The notes: generated from the letters alone by a model not told the origin. A DNA stretch of 57,311 bases from Nitrospirota bacterium (GCA_013388455.1 JACAFF010000004.1:1-57311); one strand, 5' to 3'. Shown: positions 7,594-33,732, numbered from the stretch's first letter. Numbers and translations are program-made.

Positions 7594-9968
7594 AAAAACA
7601 CCTCATCCAGAGGAATTTTGGCTATCTTCGGTCTTGCAGCAATACCCAATGATTTCTCCATCTGAATCTTCTGTTCTATTACAGCGATATTCTTTCTTGA
7701 AGAAATAACCGTATCAGGGTTTACAGATATCGAAGTAGCACCACATCTTATCATAAATTCAAGATAGTCCGGATAAACACTTGGCGCCTGCCCGCAGATA
7801 GATGTTGTTACACCATATTTCTTGCATACTGTCATGGTGTATGCAATCGCTCTAAGGACACCGAGATTACGTTCGTCATAAATCTCCTGCACAGACGCAT
7901 CGTTGCGGTCTACACCAAGTATAAGCATCGTCAGATCATTTGTTCCAAAACTCACACCATCTATTCTTTCTTTACAAAACTCTTCAATCATAAACACAGC
8001 ACTCGGGACTTCCACCATAATCCAGAGCTGGAAATTCTTATCATTTAGATAATCCAGCCCTTCTTCACGCATAATTGCAACTGTCTTTCTAAAAATATCA
8101 ACACTTCTTACAAAAGGCACCATAACCCATATATTGCTAAAACCCATTTTTTCTCTTGCCTGCCTTATAGCTCTTAATTCAAGCCTGAAAATATCATCTT
8201 CTTTTGAATATCTGTATTCTCCTCTATAACCTATCATAGGATTCGGACCAACATGACTTCTTTCATATTTTTCGCCTCCTGGCAATTCAAGAAATTCATC
8301 AGGTTTGAAATCAAGAAATCTATAAACTACTGGTTTTGGAAAAAATGCTTCAGCTACCTTACCTACTCCATTTGCGAATGTATCGATCATTTCTCTATCA
8401 CCACCTTCTTCCAATAGGAGTCTCGGATGCTTTCCTATGCTTAGCATTAAATGCTCTGCTCTAAGAAGTCCTACACCGTCAGCATTCGTTTCAGAAGCTA
8501 CTTTTTCAGCAATCTCAGGGATAGAGAGGTTAACATAAACCTTTGTTGCAGTAACTATTTGCTTTGCCATGTCTGTCAACATGATCGGTGTTTCTTTACC
8601 TTTTTCTTCTTCTCTTTTTTCACCTTTGTATATTAAACCTCTTTGGCCCTCAACAGTAATAATTTCCCCATTTTTTAATATCTTTGTTGCATTCCCTGTC
8701 CCAACAACACATGGCACACCGAGTTCGCGGCTAACTATAGCTGCATGGCATGTCTTTCCTCCAAGGTTTGTTATAATAGCTCCTGCTATTTTCATTGCAG
8801 GCACCCAGTCCGGAGTCGTCATTTCTGTTACTAAAATATTTCCCTTCTCAAATTGATTTATATCTTTCGCATTTAAAATGACCTGTACTTTTCCAGAAGC
8901 CTGACCAGGACTTACTCCTATACCTTTAATGATAATAGTCTCTTCCATAGCTATACCTCCTTCTTCTCTCTTTGATACCGCAGGTTTTTCAACCCCATGG
9001 ATTGTTTCTGGTCTCGCCTGCAGTATATAAATCTTCTCATTTTCGTCAACTGCCCATTCAATATCCTGTGGTGTTATGTAATGTTTTTCAATATCTACCC
9101 CATATTTTGCAAGACGTATTATTGTTTTGTCACTAAGTGCAGGCTTTTCTTGTAATGCTTTATCAACATTTACCCAGAGTGTCCCACCTTTGTTATCAGA
9201 TATAATCATTCGCTCTTTTTTTGCAATATTTTTCTCAAGAATCTTGAATGTGACTTTTTCAATAACATATTCGTCGGGTGTAATCTGACCGCTGACTATT
9301 GCTTCTCCCAATCCCCATGAGGCATTAATGATAATCCTGTCGTTTGCACCACTTACAGGTTCAATCGTGAACATAACGCCTGAGGCCTTTGAAAAAACCA
9401 TCTCCTGAACAGCTATACTAATAAGCACATCTTTATGTGAAAAACCTTTTTCTTTTCTGTAGACAATTGCTCTTGGTGTAAATAAAGAACTCCAGCATCT
9501 TTTAATACTTTCTAATAAATCTTTCTTTGTTACATTTAAAAAGGTGTCCTGCTGACCTGCAAAGCTTGCCCCCGGGAGGTCCTCTGCTGTAGCTGAAGAC
9601 CTGACAGCAACTGCCACATTTGTCTTACGGGTGCGTTTACATAGTTCTCTGTATGCCTGAAGGATGTCTTTTTGCATATCCTCTGGCATACGTAGACTTT
9701 CAATAAAAGCTCTGATTTTCTTTGAGCTGTTATGCAATGAGTCTATATCCTCAATGTTAATATCAGAAAGAATGGCTTGAAGTTTTTTATCAGCCGTTGT
9801 TTTTTCAAGAAATTTTTTATATGCATAAGCTGAAATAGCAAAACCATAAGGGACAGGAACACCAACTTTTCTGGTTAATTCTCCAAGATTTGCACACTTT
9901 CCTCCTACAATTGGTATATCATCTTTACCTAAATCCTCAAACCATATTACAGTATCACTCCTTTTCAT
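7572..9968 (-). CDS. ppsA: Phosphoenolpyruvate synthase
   Basis: This 798-aa enzyme converts pyruvate and ATP to PEP, AMP and Pi, the entry step of gluconeogenesis. The N-terminal ATP-binding domain begins DIPIVGGKCANLGELT and includes SSATAEDLPGASFAGQQDT. The central phosphohistidine domain has GGKTCHAAIVSREL near residue 407, where the His carries the phosphate and the Thr two residues before it is the expected regulatory phosphorylation site. The C-terminal PEP/pyruvate barrel contains FGTNDLTML and the catalytic Cys in TTSICGQAPS near 723. The length matches E. coli PpsA (792 aa). DUF299 regulators lie on both sides of it in the same operon. Confidence 0.97.
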   Translation of the reverse strand: MKRSDTVIWFEDLGKDDIPIVGGKCANLGELTRKVGVPVPYGFAISAYAYKKFLEKTTADKKLQAILSDINIEDIDSLHNSSKKIRAFIESLRMPEDMQKDILQAYRELCKRTRKTNVAVAVRSSATAEDLPGASFAGQQDTFLNVTKKDLLESIKRCWSSLFTPRAIVYRKEKGFSHKDVLISIAVQEMVFSKASGVMFTIEPVSGANDRIIINASWGLGEAIVSGQITPDEYVIEKVTFKILEKNIAKKERMIISDNKGGTLWVNVDKALQEKPALSDKTIIRLAKYGVDIEKHYITPQDIEWAVDENEKIYILQARPETIHGVEKPAVSKREEGGIAMEETIIIKGIGVSPGQASGKVQVILNAKDINQFEKGNILVTEMTTPDWVPAMKIAGAIITNLGGKTCHAAIVSRELGVPCVVGTGNATKILKNGEIITVEGQRGLIYKGEKREEEKGKETPIMLTDMAKQIVTATKVYVNLSIPEIAEKVASETNADGVGLLRAEHLMLSIGKHPRLLLEEGGDREMIDTFANGVGKVAEAFFPKPVVYRFLDFKPDEFLELPGGEKYERSHVGPNPMIGYRGEYRYSKEDDIFRLELRAIRQAREKMGFSNIWVMVPFVRSVDIFRKTVAIMREEGLDYLNDKNFQLWIMVEVPSAVFMIEEFCKERIDGVSFGTNDLTMLILGVDRNDASVQEIYDERNLGVLRAIAYTMTVCKKYGVTTSICGQAPSVYPDYLEFMIRCGATSISVNPDTVISSRKNIAVIEQKIQMEKSLGIAARPKIAKIPLDEVFFWRHIEE

Positions 9969-16947: not shown

Positions 16948-16974
16948 TTAGCACTCTCTGTTATAGAGTGCTAA
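16948..16974 (+). promoter_or_regulatory. CIRCE operator (HrcA binding site)
   Basis: TTAGCACTC-N9-GAGTGCTAA with a perfect 9-base inverted repeat and a 9-base spacer. It matches the CIRCE consensus exactly. HrcA bound here would block initiation until heat stress. The hrcA gene is not in this window. Confidence 0.97.
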
Positions 16975-17021
16975 TCCTAATGAAGATATATTATAGACAC
17001 TCAAAAGGAGGTGTTTTTTCT

Positions 17022-17453
17022 ATGCTATGGTCAGATTTAGAAAGACTTGGTAGATTATTTGACCCGTGGAGTGAATTTGAACGCCTAAATCGTTCACTTT
17101 GGAATTGGAGACCTCTTACAGAAGTAGAATTCCCGCCAGTCAATATGTGGGTTTCAGAAGACGAAGCAGTTGTTACCACAGAAATCCCTGGTATTTCTGC
17201 TGAGACAATCGACATCTCACTTGCTGGAAATTCTCTTACTTTACGAGGTTCTCGGAAACCTGAAGAGCTAAAGGAAGGGGAAACATATCATCGTAAAGAA
17301 AGGTGGCAGGGACAGTTTAGTAAAGTTATTGAGCTACCTTTTACTGTAGAAGGAGATAAAATTGATGCAAGAGTTATTAATGGAGTACTTTATATTAAAC
17401 TTCCACGTGCAGAGGCAGAAAAACCAAGAAAAATTGCAGTAAAATCAATATAA
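17022..17453 (+). CDS. Small heat-shock protein Hsp20, first copy
   Basis: A 143-aa alpha-crystallin-type chaperone that holds unfolding proteins in an ATP-independent way. The start at 17022 (MLWSDLERLG) is chosen because AAAGGAGGTG lies just before it; an ATG 54 bases upstream lacks such a site. The alpha-crystallin domain spans about residues 40-135, with MPG-like EIPGISAETIDISL and the GVLYIKLP signature. The C-terminal IAV is the I-x-V type tail that joins oligomers. It is the first gene after the CIRCE operator. Confidence 0.95.
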   Translation: MLWSDLERLGRLFDPWSEFERLNRSLWNWRPLTEVEFPPVNMWVSEDEAVVTTEIPGISAETIDISLAGNSLTLRGSRKPEELKEGETYHRKERWQGQFSKVIELPFTVEGDKIDARVINGVLYIKLPRAEAEKPRKIAVKSI

Positions 17454-17475
17454 ATACATAAGGAGGTGATTTTAT

Positions 17476-17886
17476 ATGGCAGATACTGTAACAAAAGATA
17501 TTCAGAAAAAAGTGTCTGAAACTCCTGAAAAAGCTGAACGAACAAAGACTTCAAAAATATATAATCCTTCTGTGGATATAATAGAAAGAAAAGATGAAAT
17601 TGTCCTATTTGCCGATATGCCAGGTGTTGATGAAAAAAATGTTGATATAACACTCGAAAAAAACATTATTACTATCTACGGAAAGGTCGACACCGAAATA
17701 CCTGAAAGACATAGGCTCACCTTATCTGAATATGGTGTAGGAGATTATCAAAGATCTTTTACTCTTACAGATGAGATTGATAGAGATAAAATTCAGGCAA
17801 CCATGAAAAATGGTGTTTTAAAATTGATTCTACCCAAGGCTGACGCTGTGAAAACTAAAAAGATTACAGTGAAAGCTGAGGGATAA
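17476..17886 (+). CDS. Small heat-shock protein Hsp20, second copy
   Basis: A 136-aa Hsp20 with a short N-terminal region and an alpha-crystallin domain from about residue 30 (NPSVDIIERKDEIVLFADMPG) to NGVLKLILPKA near 118, ending KKITVKAEG. It lies 22 bases after the first copy and has its own AAGGAGGTGA site. It diverges clearly from both neighbours, so it is an old paralog, not a recent duplication. Mixed oligomers are possible. Confidence 0.95.
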   Translation: MADTVTKDIQKKVSETPEKAERTKTSKIYNPSVDIIERKDEIVLFADMPGVDEKNVDITLEKNIITIYGKVDTEIPERHRLTLSEYGVGDYQRSFTLTDEIDRDKIQATMKNGVLKLILPKADAVKTKKITVKAEG

Positions 17887-17920
17887 AAAATAAATTCTTA
17901 TTAGAAAGGAGGATTTAAAA

Positions 17921-18412
17921 ATGGCAATTAAGAACCTTATAACATCAGCTAAAAAAGATGTCCCTGTAAGGCGTGAAGAGTATGATCCATTCGCCCTTTT
18001 TCGTCACGAGATGAACAGACTTTTTGACAGCTTCTTTCACGGTTTCGATATCGAGCCTTTTGAGAAAAGATTTGGGGGTTTCACACCAAATGTTAATGTA
18101 GTTGAGGATGAAAAAGAGATTAAAGTTACAGCAGAACTTCCCGGTATGGATGAAAAAGACATAGATGTCTCTTTAGCAAAAGATTCTTTAACAATTAAAG
18201 GTGAAAAGAAGGAAGAAAAAGAGGATAAAGGTAAAAATTATTATCGTATGGAACGTTCATATGGTTCATTCACTCGCATGATTCCTATTCCTGTAGAAAT
18301 CGACACAGATAAGGCAAAAGCACAATTCAAGAAAGGAGTTCTTACTGTAACCCTTCCAAAAACTGCTAAAGCGATTAAAGAAACAAAGAAGATTCCTGTC
18401 AAGGCTGAATAA
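17921..18412 (+). CDS. Small heat-shock protein Hsp20, third copy
   Basis: A 163-aa class A-like bacterial small heat-shock protein. The N-terminal arm includes DPFALFRHEMNRLFDSFF, and the alpha-crystallin domain runs from about residue 50 (FTPNVNVVEDEKEIKVTAEL) to KGVLTVTLPKT. The C-terminal tail has KKIPVKAE (I-x-V). It is the last gene of the CIRCE operon, with AGAAAGGAGG before the start and a terminator just after the stop. Confidence 0.96.
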   Translation: MAIKNLITSAKKDVPVRREEYDPFALFRHEMNRLFDSFFHGFDIEPFEKRFGGFTPNVNVVEDEKEIKVTAELPGMDEKDIDVSLAKDSLTIKGEKKEEKEDKGKNYYRMERSYGSFTRMIPIPVEIDTDKAKAQFKKGVLTVTLPKTAKAIKETKKIPVKAE

Positions 18413-18489: not shown

Positions 18490-20601
18490 ATGAATAGCTT
18501 AATACCATTCATATGCATGGGTCTCACATCTTTGCTTCTTCAGATAACCGCTCTACGCCTTCTACTTTCAACATTTTCAGGGAATGAACTCGATATCGGA
18601 ATAACTTTTTCATTCTGGCTTATCTATGTTAGCCTGGGAAGTTATATAGGACAGAGAATAAGATTTAAATATGCATTCATATATTCTTTTATTGTTATTG
18701 CAATCCTATCGTTGCCTACTGCTTTTGCAATAAAATCGATAAGAACTATCCTGTATTTAGAACCTGGTGAATCAGTATCTTTTCATTTCACTGTCCTTTC
18801 AACAGCAATTACTCTTTTACCTCTTTGTTTTATGATCGGATTGCAATTTCCTTTATCTGTTTCATTTTCAGGAGGAAACAATGCAGCAGGAAGGGTCTAT
18901 GGACTTGAAGCATTTGGAGCTTTTACAGGTGGCATTTTATTCACCTTTTTTATTTCTTCGCGAATGAATGCTTTTGAATTATGTCTTGTTCTATCATTGA
19001 TAAATATAGTAGTTGCAGTTTATCTCTCAAAAAAGAAACTTATTTCTATTACAATGATCCTTCCTCTCATTTTCTATATTGGATTTCATAAGACTTTTTC
19101 CAGCCTTTCTTGGAATGGTATGGAGATTTCTCAATCAGCCGAATCCAGATATGGAGAAATCGAAGTTATTAAGATCAGAGAACAATCGAGTATTTATACA
19201 AACGGACATCTCATGTTCACGTATCCGAATCCACAAAGGGATGAGATGAACGCACACTTACCTATGACCTTACACCCCTCACCATCGAATATCCTTGTTA
19301 TCGGCGGATCTTTAGGAATACTCAAAGAGTTTTTGAAATATCCTGTTGATAGTTTAGATTTCATAGAGCTTGATTCAAAAATTGTCGAAATATCTATGCA
19401 ACTTCTCAATAGTAGCAGAGAAGATGCAAATGCTATAAAAGATCAGAGAGTTAGAATAATTATTGAAGATGGAAGAAGATTCATAAAAAAATTAAATAGA
19501 CACGCATACGATCTGATAATTTTAAACCTTCCACAGCCGTCTACAGCAAGTATTAACCGCTTTTATACCACTGATTTTTTCATGGAAACAAAGGATGTTC
19601 TGAAAAGATACGGCATGATCTATTTATCAATTCCGCAATCAACAGGATATATCGGTAAAAGGATGAAGATAGCAAACGGCTCTATTTATAATTCACTTAA
19701 ATCTGTCTTCAGATATGTTGAGGTAACCACACAGGAATACGGAGGGCTTTTCGCATCTGATTCTGTAATATCCACAGAACCAGAGATACTTGAAAAAAGG
19801 TTTATCCAGAGAGCAATCCATACAAAACACTTTAATCAGTATATCTTCAGTGATGTCTTTTCTCCTTTTAATTTAGAGTATGTTAAAAAGAGACTCGGAG
19901 AGATAAAATTGATCAATACTGACTTCCGTCCTTCAGCATATGTATATAATCTAATGCTTTGGGCAGAGATACATGGTGGGGGAATATTATATAATCTGCT
20001 TTCAATCAGGTTCTGGAATATTCTTATCATATTTGCAGTTTATCTAACATGTATTGCCCTCATATCATACAGAAAAAAGAAACGTGTAATCTTTTTCTCT
20101 ATTTTTACTACAGGATTCTCCGGAATGTCTTTTGTCCTTACTATAATTCTTACATATCAGGCAATATACGGCTATATATATGAGATGATAGGGATACTAT
20201 CAGCAACATTCATGATCGGACTATGGATAGGAACATTAATAACAAGAAATCTCAGAGAGCCGTTAAGAATACTGTTTTATATGGAACTGACAACTATTCT
20301 TCTATCTGTCTCTTCCCCCTTATTATTTTTTAAGTCAGAATTCTTATTTTATATATTAGTTTTTCTGATAGGTGCAATTACCGGAGGCCAGTTCAGTACA
20401 GCAAATCTATCAATGGGTAGTTCTAAAGCAGGTGGAAAACTTTATGCAATGGATTTAATAGGTTCATTCACAGGATCATTGTTATCAACCTTATTGATCA
20501 TCCCCCTCTTTGGAATTTCAAGCGCACTTATGCTCATTGCATTCATAAAGGCATTCTCTGCATTCTTGATAAGGAGTATATATACTGAATCTTTTAATTG
20601 A
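18490..20601 (+). CDS. Membrane protein with spermidine-synthase-like domain
   Basis: A 703-aa protein in three parts: about six transmembrane helices (residues 1-190), a soluble Rossmann domain like polyamine aminopropyltransferases (about 215-480), and about seven helices (500-700). The Rossmann loop is degenerate (NILVIGGSLGILKEFL instead of GGGDG) but the acidic ribose ligand remains (DFIELDSKIVEI), as does EDGRRFIK. The catalytic DSSDP-type loop is replaced by LNLPQPST, so it may not make spermidine. Many bacteria have such fused proteins, usually annotated as spermidine synthase-like; function unknown. It lies 20 bases upstream of amrS in the same direction. Confidence 0.85.
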   Translation: MNSLIPFICMGLTSLLLQITALRLLLSTFSGNELDIGITFSFWLIYVSLGSYIGQRIRFKYAFIYSFIVIAILSLPTAFAIKSIRTILYLEPGESVSFHFTVLSTAITLLPLCFMIGLQFPLSVSFSGGNNAAGRVYGLEAFGAFTGGILFTFFISSRMNAFELCLVLSLINIVVAVYLSKKKLISITMILPLIFYIGFHKTFSSLSWNGMEISQSAESRYGEIEVIKIREQSSIYTNGHLMFTYPNPQRDEMNAHLPMTLHPSPSNILVIGGSLGILKEFLKYPVDSLDFIELDSKIVEISMQLLNSSREDANAIKDQRVRIIIEDGRRFIKKLNRHAYDLIILNLPQPSTASINRFYTTDFFMETKDVLKRYGMIYLSIPQSTGYIGKRMKIANGSIYNSLKSVFRYVEVTTQEYGGLFASDSVISTEPEILEKRFIQRAIHTKHFNQYIFSDVFSPFNLEYVKKRLGEIKLINTDFRPSAYVYNLMLWAEIHGGGILYNLLSIRFWNILIIFAVYLTCIALISYRKKKRVIFFSIFTTGFSGMSFVLTIILTYQAIYGYIYEMIGILSATFMIGLWIGTLITRNLREPLRILFYMELTTILLSVSSPLLFFKSEFLFYILVFLIGAITGGQFSTANLSMGSSKAGGKLYAMDLIGSFTGSLLSTLLIIPLFGISSALMLIAFIKAFSAFLIRSIYTESFN

Positions 20602-20621
20602 AATAGTTTTATAATATTAAT

Positions 20622-21596
20622 ATGTCTAAAACAGTCCAATGTGAACTTTGTCCAAACAGTTGCGTATTGGTAAACGGGCAACACAGTAAATGTCGGGCAA
20701 GGATGAATAAAGACGGAAAACTTTATAGTCTGGTATACGGTAAACCCTGCGCTGTTCATGTTGACCCCATCGAAAAGAAACCATTTTCTCATTTTCTTCC
20801 TGGAACAACCGCTTTTTCAATTGCTACAGCAGGGTGTGTACTCGACTGCAAATTTTGTCAGAACTGGCAGATATCACAGGCAAAACCAGAGGATACAGAT
20901 ACATACAATTTACCTCCTGAAAAAGTTGTTAGTCTTGCGAAATCTTATCAGTGCAGATCTATCGCATATACGTATACAGAACCCACAGTCTTTTATGAAT
21001 ACATGTACGATACGTCGATTATCGCAAAAAAAAATGATATCAAGAATACAATGCACTCATGCGGCTATATCAATGAAAAACCTCTCAGGACATTATCGAA
21101 ATATCTAAATGCTGCAAATATTGACCTGAAGGGATTCAGTGAAGATTTTTATTCACGCATATGCAATGGCAGTCTCAAGCCTGTTCTCAATTCACTTGTT
21201 ATATTGAAGGATGAAAATGTATGGCTTGAGATAACTAACCTTGTCATCCCAACACTTAATGATAATATGAAAACTATTAGAGACATGTGCAAATGGATTC
21301 TTAAAAATCTTGGGCCTAATGTGCCTGTGCATTTTTCAAGATTTTTTCCGAATTACAAATTAACTAATCTTCCACCTACCCCTCTTGAAACACTTATTGA
21401 AGCAAGAAAAACAGCTATTGATACAGGATTGCATTTTTCGTATATTGGAAATATCAGGCATGAAGGTGAAAGCACCTTCTGCCCGAAGTGTAAGAAAATA
21501 CTTATAGAGAGAATAGGTTATTTTGTAAAACAGAATAATATCTCGAATGGCATGTGCAGGTTTTGTAAAACTTCCATTCCTGGAATCTGGAGTTAA
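20622..21596 (+). CDS. amrS: AmmeMemoRadiSam system radical SAM enzyme
   Basis: A 324-aa radical SAM protein. The [4Fe-4S] motif is C-x3-C-x2-C in AGCVLDCKFCQNW near residues 71-79. N-terminal CELCPNSC plus C and C-terminal CPKC...CRFC sets could bind a further metal site. The ending IPGIW is typical of AmrS. The chemistry is not known; the gene is named for its constant linkage with Memo and AMMECR1, both found two genes downstream. TATAAT at 20610-20615 ends six bases before the ATG, so a leaderless transcript may start here in addition to read-through from the upstream gene. Confidence 0.93.
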   Translation: MSKTVQCELCPNSCVLVNGQHSKCRARMNKDGKLYSLVYGKPCAVHVDPIEKKPFSHFLPGTTAFSIATAGCVLDCKFCQNWQISQAKPEDTDTYNLPPEKVVSLAKSYQCRSIAYTYTEPTVFYEYMYDTSIIAKKNDIKNTMHSCGYINEKPLRTLSKYLNAANIDLKGFSEDFYSRICNGSLKPVLNSLVILKDENVWLEITNLVIPTLNDNMKTIRDMCKWILKNLGPNVPVHFSRFFPNYKLTNLPPTPLETLIEARKTAIDTGLHFSYIGNIRHEGESTFCPKCKKILIERIGYFVKQNNISNGMCRFCKTSIPGIWS

Positions 21597-21600
21597 CAAA

Positions 21601-21729
21601 ATGAACAGAAGAGATTTTCTAAAAATATTTTTAATAGGTATATTAAGCCTTTTTTCGAAAAAAGTTAATGCCGGGCGAAAAGCTGAAAAAAATCTGAAAG
21701 AAGCCATGTTCTGGAGGAAAATAGATTGA
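21601..21729 (+). CDS. Small RR-motif signal peptide protein in the AmmeMemoRadiSam operon
   Basis: A 42-aa product starting MNRRDFLKIFLIGILSLFSK, an RR-x-F-L-K twin-arginine motif followed by a short hydrophobic run, then a basic tail ending MFWRKID. The start at 21601 is chosen because GGAG lies eight bases upstream and the ORF sits four bases after the amrS stop. Its TGA overlaps the TTG start of the Memo-AMMECR1 gene. The Tat signal has no passenger domain, so it may be an independent small membrane protein or the stray signal of the next gene. Confidence 0.75.
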   Translation: MNRRDFLKIFLIGILSLFSKKVNAGRKAEKNLKEAMFWRKID

Positions 21730-23144
21730 AGTTAAAAAGAAAACTCATTCTGATAGCCTTTTGCTTATTGCTTGTCCCTTATTCCGCTGGCTGTGCTGAA
21801 AATGTTAAAGAACCATCAGTTGCGGGGATGTTCTATCCTGCTGATTCAAAAGAACTCGTGAAAACTATTGAGAATTTTCTCACAAATGCAGAAAGAACGA
21901 AAAATAACGGAAAACTCATAGCACTAATCTCTCCACATGCTGGATATACTTATTCAGGTCAGGTAGCAGCTTTCGGATACAAAACAATTAAAGGCAACGA
22001 TATAAAAAAAGTTATACTGATAGGACCAAGCCATCATACGGGATTTAAGGGAGTTTCTGTTTATACAAAAGGAAGTTTTAAAACTCCTCTTGGTAATGTT
22101 GATATAAACACAAATCTTGCAGAAAGTCTGATAAATGAAAATGCAGATGTTCGATTCTATCCTGAGGCATATGCAAAGGAACATTCACTTGAGGTGCAGC
22201 TGCCATTTCTCCAGACTGTCCTGAAAGACTTTACAATAGTTCCTGTTCTTATCGGGTCTATTACAAGACAGTCTTTCGATCATCTTATAGCAAAATTAAT
22301 AGATATCCTCGATGAAAAGACTTTAATCATAGCAAGCACAGACCTTTCGCATTATCATGATTATCATAAGGCAATAGAGATGGACAGCAAGATCATATCA
22401 GCTGTTGAACGGCTATCTGTCATGGATGTAAGTCAGCTTTTGCAGGATGGAAAATCTGAAATGTGTGGTGCTTATCCGGTCATCATCACCCTGGAAGTTG
22501 CACGAAGATATGGTGCGAACATCGGCGTTCTCTTTAAGTATGCAAATTCAGGTGATGTAACGGAAGAAAAAGATATGGTTGTCGGTTATGCTTCAATCGG
22601 ACTTTATAAAAATCCCTTTACAGAAGAAGAAAAAAAGGAACTTCTTGAATTAGCGAAAAAAGCTATTACCGATTATGTTACCAACGGGAAAACACCTGAG
22701 GCACAAATAAAAAACCAGAAGTTCAAAACAGACGGAGCTGTCTTTGTAACTATAAAAAAGAATGGCGCTTTGAGAGGTTGTATCGGACATGTTCAGGCTA
22801 TTATGCCTTTACATCAATCAGTAGTAAAGAATGCAGTAGCAGCATGCTCGGCTGACCCGAGATTCCCTTCTTTGACGAAAGAGGAGTTAAAGGATATAGA
22901 TGTTGAAATATCCATACTTTCACCGCTTAACTATGTGAAGGATATTAAAGAAATTCAGGTTGGAAAACACGGGCTCGTGATCAGAAAAGGCATGCATCAG
23001 GGGCTCCTCCTTCCTCAGGTTGCAGAAGAAAACGGATGGGACAGGGAAACATTTCTTAATAAATTATGTAACAAGGCCGGGCTCCCAGAAAATGCATGGG
23101 AAAATGCTGATTTATATTATTTCACTGCTGAAATCATAAAATAA
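21726..23144 (+). CDS. Exported Memo (AmrB) - AMMECR1 (AmrA) fusion
   Basis: A 472-aa two-domain protein. Residues 1-22 form a signal segment with a lipobox-like YSAGC, so it is probably a lipoprotein. The Memo domain (about 28-285) has VAGMFYPAD, LISPHAGYTYSGQVA, IGPSHHTGF and ASTDLSHYHDY, with the His/Cys ligands of this dioxygenase-like fold. The AMMECR1 domain (about 300-472) has GAVFVTIKKNGALRGCIGH (RGCIG motif), DPRFPSL and the closing LPENAWENADLYYF. Translation starts at TTG, coupled to the RR-peptide gene through TTGA. Function is unknown. Confidence 0.93.
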   Translation: MKLKRKLILIAFCLLLVPYSAGCAENVKEPSVAGMFYPADSKELVKTIENFLTNAERTKNNGKLIALISPHAGYTYSGQVAAFGYKTIKGNDIKKVILIGPSHHTGFKGVSVYTKGSFKTPLGNVDINTNLAESLINENADVRFYPEAYAKEHSLEVQLPFLQTVLKDFTIVPVLIGSITRQSFDHLIAKLIDILDEKTLIIASTDLSHYHDYHKAIEMDSKIISAVERLSVMDVSQLLQDGKSEMCGAYPVIITLEVARRYGANIGVLFKYANSGDVTEEKDMVVGYASIGLYKNPFTEEEKKELLELAKKAITDYVTNGKTPEAQIKNQKFKTDGAVFVTIKKNGALRGCIGHVQAIMPLHQSVVKNAVAACSADPRFPSLTKEELKDIDVEISILSPLNYVKDIKEIQVGKHGLVIRKGMHQGLLLPQVAEENGWDRETFLNKLCNKAGLPENAWENADLYYFTAEIIK

Positions 23145-23320: not shown

Positions 23321-25567
23321 ATGAAAGTTGTCAATGGATTAAACCTTTCACCAAATGCAATAAAGGTTCTTGAAAAAAGATATTTAAAAAAAGATGAAGA
23401 TGGAAAGATTGTTGAAACCCCTGAAGGCCTATTCAGAAGGGTTGCAAAAGCAGTAGCACAAGCAGAAAGACAATATAAAAAAACAGACTCAGAAGTATCA
23501 AAGCTTGAAGAAGTCTTTTACCAGATGCTTACTGCTCTTGAATTTCTTCCGAACAGCCCTACCCTTATGAACGCAGGCAGGAGGCTTGGCCAATTAAGTG
23601 CTTGTTTTGTAATACCTGTGGATGATTCCATGGAGTCTATTTTTGATGCTGTAAAAAATACCGCAATTATACATAAATCAGGTGGTGGAACCGGATTCAG
23701 TTTTTCGAGATTAAGACCAAATGGAGATATTGTTGGGTCTACAAAAGGCATCTCTTCAGGACCTGTTTCCTTTATGACTGTATTCGATACTGCAACAGAG
23801 GCGGTCAAGCAAGGTGGAACAAGAAGAGGTGCCAACATGGGCATCCTCAGAGTTGATCATCCCGATATTATAAGTTTTATAACATGTAAAGATGACAATA
23901 CAAAATTTAATAATTTCAATATTTCTGTTGCAATTACAGACGATTTTATGAAAGCTGTTGAAGAAGACAGGTCATATGACCTTATCAATCCAAGGACCCA
24001 GAAAGTAACAAATACCCTCAGGGCAAGGGATGTATTCAATCTTATTATTGAACATGCATGGAAAAACGGAGAACCTGGAATTGTATTTATTGATAGAGTG
24101 GATGCATCTAATCCGACTCCTCATATAGGTCATATAGAGTCAACAAATCCATGCGGAGAACAACCTTTGCTACCATATGAATCCTGTAATTTAGGCTCAA
24201 TCAATCTCGCCAAGATGGTTAAAAAGGCGGAGGATAACAAGGAAAAAGCTGAAATTGACTGGGATAAACTCAAAGACATAACGTGGAAAGCCGTAAGGTT
24301 TCTTGATAATGTAATTGATGTAAATAAATATCCATTAAAGAAAATCGAAGAAATGACAAAGGCAAATAGAAAGATAGGGCTTGGACTGATGGGTTGGGCA
24401 GATATGTTAATACAACTTGGTATTCCATATAATTCAGATAGAGCAGTTAGTCTTGCTGAAGAGGTAATGGAATTCATTCAAAAAGAGGGCAAGAATGCAT
24501 CAGCATCGCTCGCAGAAGAACGTGGTGTCTTTCCAAATTACAAAGGAAGCATTTATGACGGAAAGCTTAGACTGAGGAATGCTACAGTGACTACTATTGC
24601 ACCGACTGGAACACTTTCAATTATTGCAGGCTGTTCATCTGGCATCGAGCCTCTATTTGCAGTATCTTTTATCAGAACAGTTATGGAAGGCACAAAACTG
24701 ATCGAGATCAATCCATATTTTGAAAAAGTTGCAAAGGAGCGAGGTTTCTGGTCACGAACTCTTATGGAGAGGATCGCAGATAAAGGTTCAATTAAAGATT
24801 TTGACGAGATACCTGAAGACATCAGAGAAGTCTTTGTTACAGCCCATGATATTACTCCTCTTGAACATATAAAAATGCAGGCATCATTTCAAAAATATGT
24901 TGATAATGCTGTATCAAAAACAGTGAATTTCCCTCATCATGCAACTGCAAAAGATGTTGAGGATGTTTATCTCCTTTCTTATAAACTCGGCTGTAAAGGC
25001 GTCACTGTTTATCGTGATGGCTCTCGTGAACAGCAGGTTCTAACAAAAGGTAAAACAACATTAAGCAGTCAGCAGTCAGCAGTTAGCAGTCAGACAGCCA
25101 AAATAATTCCTAAAAAAAGGCCAGAAGTTATAAAAGGAACAACTCGTTTAATGAAGACAGGTTGTGGGAATCTTTATGTAACTATCAATGAAGATGAAGA
25201 AGGACATCTGTTTGAATTGTTCACTTCCATGGGAAAAGCGGGTGGATGCGCAGCAAGTCAGTCCGAGGCTATAGGCAGGCTTGTCTCGCTCGCATTCCGT
25301 TCCAATATAGAGCCTGATGAAGTAATCAAACAACTGAAAGGTATATCCTGTCACTTGCCTGTATGGCTTGAAGGAGGCAAGATTTTATCCTGTTCGGATG
25401 CTATTGCAAAAGCACTCGAAAAATATCGCACTGTTGGTAAAAAGGGCAATGGTGATGGCTATAAAGTTACTATGCTCATGGGTGCCTGCCCTGAATGTGG
25501 CGGGGCCATCGAACGCGAAAGCGGCTGCCTCGTCTGCCACAATTGCGGGTTTACAAAATGCGGATAG
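23321..25567 (+). CDS. nrdJ: Adenosylcobalamin-dependent ribonucleotide reductase (class II)
   Basis: A 748-aa enzyme that reduces ribonucleotides to deoxyribonucleotides by a radical generated from coenzyme B12, which works with or without oxygen. Diagnostic segments: LEFLPNSPTLMNAG near residue 73, QLSACFVIPVDDS, GGGTGFSFSRLRP, NPCGEQPLLPYESCNLGSINL with the radical-site Cys and Glu, and APTGTLSIIAGCSSGIEP. The C-terminus has a CPECGG...CHNCG zinc motif. A linker near residues 582-592 is encoded by a heptamer DNA repeat. GGGGGA precedes the ATG, and two NrdR boxes overlap the promoter. Confidence 0.97.
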   Translation: MKVVNGLNLSPNAIKVLEKRYLKKDEDGKIVETPEGLFRRVAKAVAQAERQYKKTDSEVSKLEEVFYQMLTALEFLPNSPTLMNAGRRLGQLSACFVIPVDDSMESIFDAVKNTAIIHKSGGGTGFSFSRLRPNGDIVGSTKGISSGPVSFMTVFDTATEAVKQGGTRRGANMGILRVDHPDIISFITCKDDNTKFNNFNISVAITDDFMKAVEEDRSYDLINPRTQKVTNTLRARDVFNLIIEHAWKNGEPGIVFIDRVDASNPTPHIGHIESTNPCGEQPLLPYESCNLGSINLAKMVKKAEDNKEKAEIDWDKLKDITWKAVRFLDNVIDVNKYPLKKIEEMTKANRKIGLGLMGWADMLIQLGIPYNSDRAVSLAEEVMEFIQKEGKNASASLAEERGVFPNYKGSIYDGKLRLRNATVTTIAPTGTLSIIAGCSSGIEPLFAVSFIRTVMEGTKLIEINPYFEKVAKERGFWSRTLMERIADKGSIKDFDEIPEDIREVFVTAHDITPLEHIKMQASFQKYVDNAVSKTVNFPHHATAKDVEDVYLLSYKLGCKGVTVYRDGSREQQVLTKGKTTLSSQQSAVSSQTAKIIPKKRPEVIKGTTRLMKTGCGNLYVTINEDEEGHLFELFTSMGKAGGCAASQSEAIGRLVSLAFRSNIEPDEVIKQLKGISCHLPVWLEGGKILSCSDAIAKALEKYRTVGKKGNGDGYKVTMLMGACPECGGAIERESGCLVCHNCGFTKCG
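25064..25091 (+). repeat. Heptamer tandem repeat inside nrdJ
   Basis: Four units of AGCAGTC (one with a final T) in a row encode part of the Ser/Gln/Ala linker SSQQSAVSSQT. The stretch lies before the C-terminal domain and keeps the frame open. Confidence 0.85.
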
Positions 25568-31995: not shown

Positions 31996-32856
31996 CTAAA
32001 GAAATTTTTTGATATGTTTGGGAATACAGAAAATTCTTTTATGCGCATCTGTATCATAATACAAAAGATTTGATAATTCCCTCTCTATTATTCTTTTATT
32101 AATAACCCTAAAAGATACTGTTTGGGGATTATATTTTGCAGATCCGATGATAAACGCCCATTGCGTAGCAAAGCTTGGAATATATTCATAATAAAAAACT
32201 GCCTTTGCAAATATTTCACTTAAAATATTAAACAATTTAAACGAGATTGTTGTTCCTGTCTCAGAGACATTTGTAGCATGTGTAACAAAAAGACCATCTG
32301 CTTTAAGAGCCTTTTTAATGTAAGTATAAAATTTCTTCGTATATATCATTTTAGCAGGACCTCCTTCGACAGGGTCACTGATATCTGCAATGATTACATC
32401 ATATGTATCTCTGACTCTTTTAACATACTCCATCGCATCGTCAAAAATTAAGTTTACCTTTTTATCATTAAATGAATTATTGTGCCATTTTTTAAGATGT
32501 TTTTTACACAAATCAACAAATTCTTTATCTATATCTATCATATCAACTTTACTGACTGTTATATGTTTTAACACCTCTCTCAATGTCGCACCCTCTCCGC
32601 CTCCGAGTATCAATATATTTTCAGGTTTTGGATGCAATATCATAGCCGGGTGCACAAGTGTTTCATGATATATAAACTCATCTCTTTCAGATGACTGAAT
32701 CTTTTTGTCAAGAACTACAACAGTTCCAAATTCGTAAGTTTTTAATATTTTCACGTGCTGATACTTCGTCTTCTTTGATAATATATAATCTTTTACACGA
32801 TGGTATATCCATCTATTTTTGCTGTCCTTATCGATAAACCATATATTCCTTTCCAT
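31996..32856 (-). CDS. Aminopropyltransferase, thermospermine-synthase-like
   Basis: A 286-aa polyamine aminopropyltransferase. It has the SAM-type loop ILGGGEGATLREVLKH, the acidic MIDIDKEF and FDDAMEY. The catalytic strand is IIADISDPVEGGP, then YTKKFY, and YIPSFATQWAF lies near the end. DPVEGGP and PSFAxxW are shared with ACL5-type thermospermine synthases, as I recall them, and differ from the DSTDPxGP of spermidine synthases. It would add an aminopropyl group to spermidine. It is the last gene of the polyamine operon, 36 bases after a second aminopropyltransferase. No speD lies in the window. Confidence 0.85.
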   Translation of the reverse strand: MERNIWFIDKDSKNRWIYHRVKDYILSKKTKYQHVKILKTYEFGTVVVLDKKIQSSERDEFIYHETLVHPAMILHPKPENILILGGGEGATLREVLKHITVSKVDMIDIDKEFVDLCKKHLKKWHNNSFNDKKVNLIFDDAMEYVKRVRDTYDVIIADISDPVEGGPAKMIYTKKFYTYIKKALKADGLFVTHATNVSETGTTISFKLFNILSEIFAKAVFYYEYIPSFATQWAFIIGSAKYNPQTVSFRVINKRIIERELSNLLYYDTDAHKRIFCIPKHIKKFL

Positions 32857-32892
32857 TTTTAAAATACCACTGAATCGAATTTATTTATCTTT

Positions 32893-33732
32893 TCACCACA
32901 TCAACTTCTTTTGCATCAACTTCTGATACAAATCTTTTGTCATAAATGCCTGCTTATGTATTTCTGGATCATAATACTTTGTGTTAATTGAGAAGCTATT
33001 TCTAACTTCTCTTGGATTAATTTTTTTTGATGCAACTGCAAAAGCCCACCAATTACCAGGATACGTTGCAATCGGAGCAGTATATAAATCTACTATAGGG
33101 AAAATATGTTTCAATGTTTCCTGCATTTCGATAACCATATCTTTATGAAAATGTAATGACTCTGTATGACTAACAAATAATCCTTCAGATGAAAGACTAT
33201 CTTTCACAGAATAAAAAAAATCATCAGTGAACAGACTCCTTGCAAATCCAATAATATCGGTCGAATCAATAATAATTGCATCAATATCAGTATTTTTCTT
33301 TTTCTTCAAAAATTCTGCCCCATCCATGATATTTAATTCCACTCTGGGGTCGTCAACACCTGAGGATATAGTTGGAAAAAATCTCTTTGAAACATTAATT
33401 ACTTCTTCATCAATTTCAACAAAATAGACTTTTTCAACTGTTTTATGTTTTAGAACCTCTCTTACTACTCCTCCATCTCCACCACCGATTACAATAACCT
33501 TTCTTGGATTAGGATGTGCATGCATTACAATATGAGTCAGCATCTCATGATAAAAGAACTCATCCCTTTCTGTTAGTTGCACAACGTCGTCAAGAATCAG
33601 CATTCTCCCAAAATAGGGGTTTCTTATAACCATAATTTCTTGAAATTTACTTTTCCCTGTGTATAATATCTCTTCAACATCATATAAATATTCAACCGGT
33701 GCATAAGGAGCTTTTTCTGTAAACTTAATCAT
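32893..33732 (-). CDS. speE: Spermidine synthase-like aminopropyltransferase
   Basis: A 279-aa enzyme expected to transfer aminopropyl from decarboxylated SAM to putrescine. It shows GGGDGGVVREVLKHKTVEKV, VEIDEEVI, NIMDGAEFL, IIDSTDIIGFARSLF and the YPGNWWAFAVAS end. The usual DSTDP-x-GPA loop reads DSTDIIGFA here, so the substrate pocket is altered. The start at 33732 is chosen because GAGAGG lies before it and the homology begins at MIKFTEKAPYAPVEY. It lies 14 bases downstream of the ornithine decarboxylase gene. Confidence 0.9.
   Translation of the reverse strand: MIKFTEKAPYAPVEYLYDVEEILYTGKSKFQEIMVIRNPYFGRMLILDDVVQLTERDEFFYHEMLTHIVMHAHPNPRKVIVIGGGDGGVVREVLKHKTVEKVYFVEIDEEVINVSKRFFPTISSGVDDPRVELNIMDGAEFLKKKKNTDIDAIIIDSTDIIGFARSLFTDDFFYSVKDSLSSEGLFVSHTESLHFHKDMVIEMQETLKHIFPIVDLYTAPIATYPGNWWAFAVASKKINPREVRNSFSINTKYYDPEIHKQAFMTKDLYQKLMQKKLMW

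Follow-up and report, generated by a model that had tools for sequence, protein, structure and literature searches.

What does a 42-amino-acid (aa) peptide with a twin-arginine (RR) leader do when it is encoded on its own between the genes of a radical SAM (S-adenosylmethionine) enzyme and a Memo-AMMECR1 fusion? The question is raised by a Nitrospirota bacterium (GCA_013388455.1, JACAFF010000004.1:1-57311), whose analysed stretch of 57,311 nucleotides (nt) is referred to as the window, with all coordinates counting from its first letter. Four genes run together in it, encoding a SpeE-like membrane protein, the radical SAM enzyme AmrS, the peptide (RR peptide) and the fusion. An earlier sequence-only reading had described the peptide as a signal of the twin-arginine translocation (Tat) type without passenger. 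Its RR leader proved to be real; the description as passenger-less was not supported, since the tail is the N-terminal element that AmrS lacks, which makes AmrS the likely passenger. The features concerned are:

18490..20601, + strand: SpeE-like polytopic membrane protein, 703 aa, from a match to the Spermine_synth profile PF01564
20622..21596, + strand: amrS, radical SAM enzyme, 324 aa, short form, from a match to TIGR04337
21601..21729, + strand: RR peptide, 42 aa, MNRRDFLKIFLIGILSLFSKKVNAGRKAEKNLKEAMFWRKID, twin-arginine leader and putative detached AmrS N-terminal element
21697..21726, + strand: tail of the RR peptide, KEAMFWRKID; the equivalent EAMFWEKLD is packed in a model of a one-piece AmrS
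21726..23144, + strand: Memo-AMMECR1 fusion, 472 aa, TTG start, hydrophobic leader, predicted to be exported
21726..21794, + strand: N-terminal leader of the fusion as far as C23, MKLKRKLILIAFCLLLVPYSAGC, assigned from sequence

The AmrS of the window, which begins with MSKTVQCELC, enters the family model only at position 11 and has neither a leader nor the usual N-terminal EAxFYxKL element, while its cluster motif CVLDCKFC (CxxxCxxC) is intact. Unsplit AmrS typically start with MKEAMFYEKLDxxKVxCxLC, and the peptide tail, in the form KEAMFWRK(L/I)D, matches their N-terminus MKEAMFYEKLD; the element is thus carried by the RR peptide and not by the AmrS chain, of which the genome of the window holds one copy above the cut-off. 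The pieces also fit in length. Among one-piece AmrS bearing the motif, 10/10 cytosolic proteins and 45/54 exported ones have 7 residues between the aromatic pair and the first conserved valine, in the VxC strand, and the residues of tail and AmrS N-terminus, counted without the initiator methionine, add up to 7 in 14 of 24 split pairs, that of the window included. In an AlphaFold2 (AF2) model of the one-piece relative L190 (mean predicted local distance difference test, pLDDT, of 93.8), EAMFWEKLD is packed at a pLDDT of about 95, and the strands W18-K20 and V26-C28, which judging by their order probably form a hairpin, flank the split point. No solved AmrS structure was found by sequence; the nearest solved fold is that of pyruvate formate-lyase activating enzyme (3cb8, Foldseek E 3.3e-13). 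The matching breakpoint suggests that the RR peptide is the N-terminal element of AmrS, detached, joined to an export signal and encoded separately. The earlier proposal that it is an independent partner was not supported, as its tail is the very element absent from the neighbouring AmrS.

The split is conserved. In a sample of 296 genomes of the phylum, a profile search detected the RR peptide in 29, and a short AmrS (identity at least 56%) was present in exactly these 29. One further profile match (L120) was dismissed as the leader of an unrelated protein, and G039, in which amrS is broken at contig ends, was left out of the co-occurrence count. Positions 3-4 are RR in all 29 peptides, whose tails likewise all contain AxFW. 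Among the 19 relatives inspected first, 16 encode a peptide with the same tail directly 3' of the short amrS, in most cases with the fusion gene on its other side; in the exceptions (L046, L049, L050) it lies upstream of the fusion gene, on a different contig from amrS. These exceptions are the genomes G027, G048 and G034, in which peptide and short amrS are thus unlinked and yet both are kept. Codon comparison yielded a ratio of nonsynonymous to synonymous differences (pN/pS) of 0.22, with synonymous sites near saturation. Because it is kept across genomes and has this pN/pS, the RR peptide is a real gene under purifying selection. The linkage with amrS that the sequence-only reading had pointed out is far above chance: the SpeE-like protein occurs in 29/29 genomes with split AmrS and 0/31 controls, the RR peptide in 29/29 and 0/267, respectively.

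The leader is of Tat type, with an RRxFL motif in which the FL-type residues are nearly constant, a moderately hydrophobic segment and a basic c-region, and TatC is encoded in the genome of the window (G000:C42, E 2.4e-70). Relatives in which leader and enzyme form one chain place this leader in a wider family. For comparison, 80 AmrS loci, mostly one-piece, were taken from a species-level genome collection (Omnitrophota, Bacteroidota, Acidobacteriota, Planctomycetota, Desulfobacterota, Latescibacterota and others). A crude pattern match assigns a hydrophobic stretch preceded by an RR/KR-type motif to 53 of these AmrS and a plain one to 15; with two of the other 12 (L145, L195), which show an RR/RK motif by inspection, about 70 of the 80 have a leader. 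In one-piece relatives this leader, Tat or Sec-like, stands ahead of the same EAxF-type element. In six AmrS (L166, L176, L187, L196, L210, L211), a haem-c motif (CxxCH) comes after the ARFW element and ahead of the first CxxC; as attachment of haem c takes place only outside the cytoplasm, these proteins support an exported family. Within about 4 kb of the 70 leader-bearing loci, a Memo-AMMECR1 fusion was found at 36 and a SpeE-like gene at 38, and neither adjoins any of 19 cytosolic-type amrS loci. In the tree, leader-bearing and split AmrS are set apart from nine cytosolic AmrS (support 100). We infer that the AmrS of the window belongs to the exported type, a point absent from the earlier reading. 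Within the same family of genomes, L072 encodes at 8799-9875, after the genes of a one-piece Tat-AmrS and a SpeE-like protein, another radical SAM protein whose leader is of Tat type (MDSLSRRQFIKACFY...).

Split AmrS fall into two clades of 24 rows (support 99) and 5 rows (support 98). The tree fits one origin of the split as well as two. In the second clade (L148, L163, L169, L175, L178; Omnitrophota, Elusimicrobia and an unclassified bacterium), a leaderless AmrS is again followed directly downstream by a separate RR/RK-type peptide, here with an A-x-x-Y tail and, in L163, KRIDFLK. The peptides of L148, L169, L175 and L178 end in LAG soon after the aromatic motif (DDLAG, EKLAG, DGLAG and DSLAG), differing in this from the peptides of the window's phylum. 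A motif search at the one-piece loci found no RR peptide adjoining a one-piece AmrS; matches at L158, L191, L215 and L221, which lacked RR or a sensible position, were taken as chance.

For the remaining genes, the earlier reading had coordinates, spacings and families right. Gaps of 20 nt and 4 nt separate the SpeE-like gene from amrS and amrS from the peptide gene, which overlaps the fusion gene by TTGA. AmrS scored 378 bits against TIGR04337 (cut-off 220), the Memo domain of the fusion 287 bits against TIGR04336 (cut-off 26) and its AMMECR1 domain 184.5 bits against TIGR04335 (cut-off 99), so that all three lie above their NCBIfam cut-offs within one gene cluster, and the membrane protein matched PF01564 with an E of 1.7e-25. 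In the fusion, the Memo metal-site motifs SPHAGY, GPSHH and CGAYP and the AMMECR1 motif LRGCIG are intact. A cysteine directly after the hydrophobic segment (C23, YSAGC in the window) is kept in nearly all relatives, the lipobox-like sequence of the window having serine at -3 (SAGC), and 33 of 40 such fusions have a hydrophobic leader. The fusion has a leader of its own, and the system most likely acts outside the cytoplasm, as had been proposed for its final protein. Two genomes have fusions (G042:C49:33427-34809, G060:C79:9563-10966) and neither split AmrS, RR peptide nor SpeE-like protein.

For the SpeE-like protein, the 13 helices reported earlier were reproduced by hydropathy and not by the AF2 model (mean pLDDT 89), which has 14, seven on either side of a SpeE domain (residues ~212-505). 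This central domain has the SpeE fold, matching aminopropyltransferases (1uir, Foldseek E 7.6e-13), and the two membrane halves are repeats of each other (E 3e-5). As lysine and arginine number 17 in the even-numbered loops and 6 in the odd-numbered ones, the SpeE domain aside, the N-terminus is predicted to lie inside and the SpeE domain, after seven helices, outside. The signature motifs of SpeE are GGGDGG and DxxD; here, the glycine motif is replaced by GGSLGI and the catalytic DxxD region by NLPQP, while the acidic residues of the nucleoside site are retained. The scores are far from those of spermidine synthase equivalogs (130.7 vs 472 and 83.6 vs 249.55 bits). The protein is a candidate for binding SAM, or a nucleoside related to it, within the system; a part in holding, moving or disposing of SAM or its products at the outer face is conjecture.

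Split systems outside the family of the window have two further components, a 66-aa transmembrane (TM) peptide, whose tail is KKGLSLHKGMYWKEKE, and a NosR-like protein. The latter has CxxxCP motifs and one of flavinylation type, SRATVS. Of the 296 genomes, 20 encode the TM peptide, and short AmrS is present in every one of them; the NosR-like protein was found in the same 19 of the 29. Genes for both stand beside that of split AmrS in L129 (5021-6244), L131, L040 (7596-8813, - strand), L043, L138 and L140. The NosR-like proteins of L148, L175 and L178 themselves end in the tail, joined to them behind an additional C-terminal helix, and NosR-like proteins occur without it where AmrS is one-piece (L150, L159). 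The publications consulted on flavinylated electron carriers mention neither radical SAM enzymes nor AmmeMemo. In these relatives, AmrS would dock on its electron donor through the tail of the TM peptide or NosR-like protein, and a single AmrS site may receive first the RR peptide, during export, and later the TM peptide. Both components were rejected for the system of the window itself, neither having been found in its genome or family.

From these observations, we consider it probable that the locus encodes an extracytoplasmic AmmeMemoRadiSam system in which the Tat leader of AmrS has become a separate gene and docks in trans. AmrS would fold around its Fe-S cluster in the cytoplasm without an EAxFW element of its own, and the RR peptide would supply this element in trans, its tail bedding on the first strand of AmrS. 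The twin-arginine leader would then direct the complex to TatABC, and folded AmrS would either cross the membrane as a hitchhiker or be inserted as part of an anchored complex. On the outer side, AmrS would act with the lipoprotein-like Memo-AMMECR1 fusion and the membrane-bound SpeE-like protein, whose nucleoside-binding-type domain is predicted to face outward. What the sequences themselves show is the conserved split, the exact co-occurrence, the matching breakpoint, the Tat-type leader and the existence of one-piece Tat-AmrS; binding, Tat transport, location and SAM supply are predictions. A more ambitious version is held only tentatively, as somewhat doubtful in its entirety: a widespread extracytoplasmic radical SAM system in which, in two lineages, a stand-alone Tat leader both exports AmrS and completes its fold, most relatives re-dock AmrS by an equivalent tail on an anchor or on an electron-feeding NosR-like flavoprotein, and the SpeE-like protein handles SAM or its products outside.

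Several observations weigh against an exported AmrS completed by the RR peptide. Extracytoplasmic radical SAM chemistry demands SAM and a strong reductant on the outer side, neither of which is established, and TM peptide and NosR-like protein are absent from all 10 family-f1 genomes, that of the window included. Against Tat_signal (PF10518), the RR peptide scored 14.1 bits, below the cut-off of 22.7, which weakens its assignment as a Tat substrate and is compatible with Tat function; many RR peptides outside the family of the window have no AxA cleavage site. As to the tail, 15 exported one-piece AmrS have no clear motif, the peptide gene accompanies memo-ammecr1 and not amrS in three genomes, and the equivalent tail on the second anchor peptide of relatives means that the site may take more than one ligand. 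Finally, the genome of the window has separate leaderless genes for AMMECR1 (G000:C42:29233-29715) and Memo (32672-33463), and no second AmrS was found in it (completeness 99.4%), which together leave room for a cytoplasmic role of the single AmrS.

The most probable of the alternatives is that the RR peptide completes AmrS in trans as a plain membrane tether, with AmrS staying on the inner face and modifying something there. SAM and reductants are located in the cytoplasm, the genome retains leaderless Memo and AMMECR1 and no other AmrS, and in many RR peptides the hydrophobic segment is short, lies between basic flanks and is accompanied by no cleavage site. Yet a plain anchor would not need RR in 29/29 peptides with F/L-type residues right after it, sister AmrS are Tat-led, some with CxxCH, the partner fusion bears an export leader, and the second anchor tail of relatives follows the last NosR-like helix, by our inference on the outer side; we regard a tether as unlikely. 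Considerably less probable is that the EAMFW tail is a substrate, modified by AmrS alone or with Memo-AMMECR1 in a Tat-led precursor resembling ribosomally synthesized and post-translationally modified peptides. A small peptide gene adjoining a radical SAM gene, an invariant aromatic pair and the recurrence of the motif in the second anchor peptide and NosR-like tails would agree with this, but the same element is fixed at constant spacing at the N-terminus of unsplit AmrS, cytosolic and exported, is packed within the AmrS fold by AF2, and occurs on RR peptides only where AmrS lacks it.

That the RR peptide instead serves the fusion, as a targeting helper in the earlier reading, appears more improbable still. 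The TTGA overlap could reflect such a role, as could the three genomes with the peptide upstream of the fusion and amrS elsewhere. The fusion, however, has its own hydrophobic leader and cysteine and occurs without RR peptide wherever AmrS is one-piece (36 loci), RR peptides of Omnitrophota and Elusimicrobia adjoin AmrS mostly with no fusion nearby, and RR peptide and fusion occur together in the absence of short AmrS in 0/296 genomes. Nor is the peptide what is left of a second, decaying amrS, as its resemblance to the start of a Tat-AmrS (L068) might suggest; its conservation in 29 genomes, its pN/pS and its near-constant end point rule this out.

Beside the operon, three Hsp20 genes upstream (16968-18412) and a B12-dependent ribonucleotide reductase gene downstream (23321-25567) hold their positions in several relatives (L032, L033, L034, L038).

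If an extracytoplasmic system with a separate leader is correct, a Tat leader peptide that completes its own cargo would represent a new way of targeting proteins, and bacteria of many phyla would have an unrecognised extracytoplasmic version of Memo, AMMECR1 and radical SAM enzyme. To our knowledge, Memo and AMMECR1 are conserved in humans without an agreed biochemical function, and we are not aware of any radical SAM enzyme acting outside the cytoplasm. As the operon ties the fused Memo-AMMECR1 to AmrS, a SpeE-like protein and, in relatives, an electron donor, with location, electron source and partners predicted, function becomes testable. In the literature searched, mostly outside subscription journals, no exported AmrS, stand-alone Tat leader peptide or extracytoplasmic radical SAM enzyme is described.

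Among known systems, pyruvate formate-lyase activating enzyme (3cb8) resembles AmrS alone, and in fold only: identity is 14%, the TIGR02493 score 46.5 vs 231.75 bits, and the operon has no glycyl radical enzyme. Aminopropyltransferases and fused MFS-SpdSyn proteins (PF01564, NF037959, PRK03612) share a central SpeE fold flanked by helices; the protein studied here falls below all NCBIfam cut-offs, has altered glycine and catalytic motifs and a domain predicted outside, and is strictly tied to split AmrS in our set. Tat hitchhiking by heterodimers is known, e.g. for the small and large subunits of NiFe hydrogenase (PMC10924467), where one polypeptide provides a folded Fe-S partner with the RR leader, as would be the case here; there the leader belongs to a full protein, whereas here it would be on a peptide of 38-50 aa that is otherwise only the detached N-terminal element of the enzyme. 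One-piece Tat-AmrS (L068, L072, L073 and many of L142-L221) have the same RR leader, EAxFY element and VxCxLC, often beside genes for Memo-AMMECR1 and SpeE-like proteins, but unite leader and enzyme in a single chain without separate peptide. With the AmmeMemoRadiSam system, finally, the locus shares all three proteins above curated cut-offs and the key motifs of Memo and AMMECR1; it differs in that AmrS belongs to a leader-bearing clade apart from cytosolic AmrS, its leader being a separate gene, Memo and AMMECR1 are fused and predicted to be exported, and a SpeE-like membrane protein is a constant partner.

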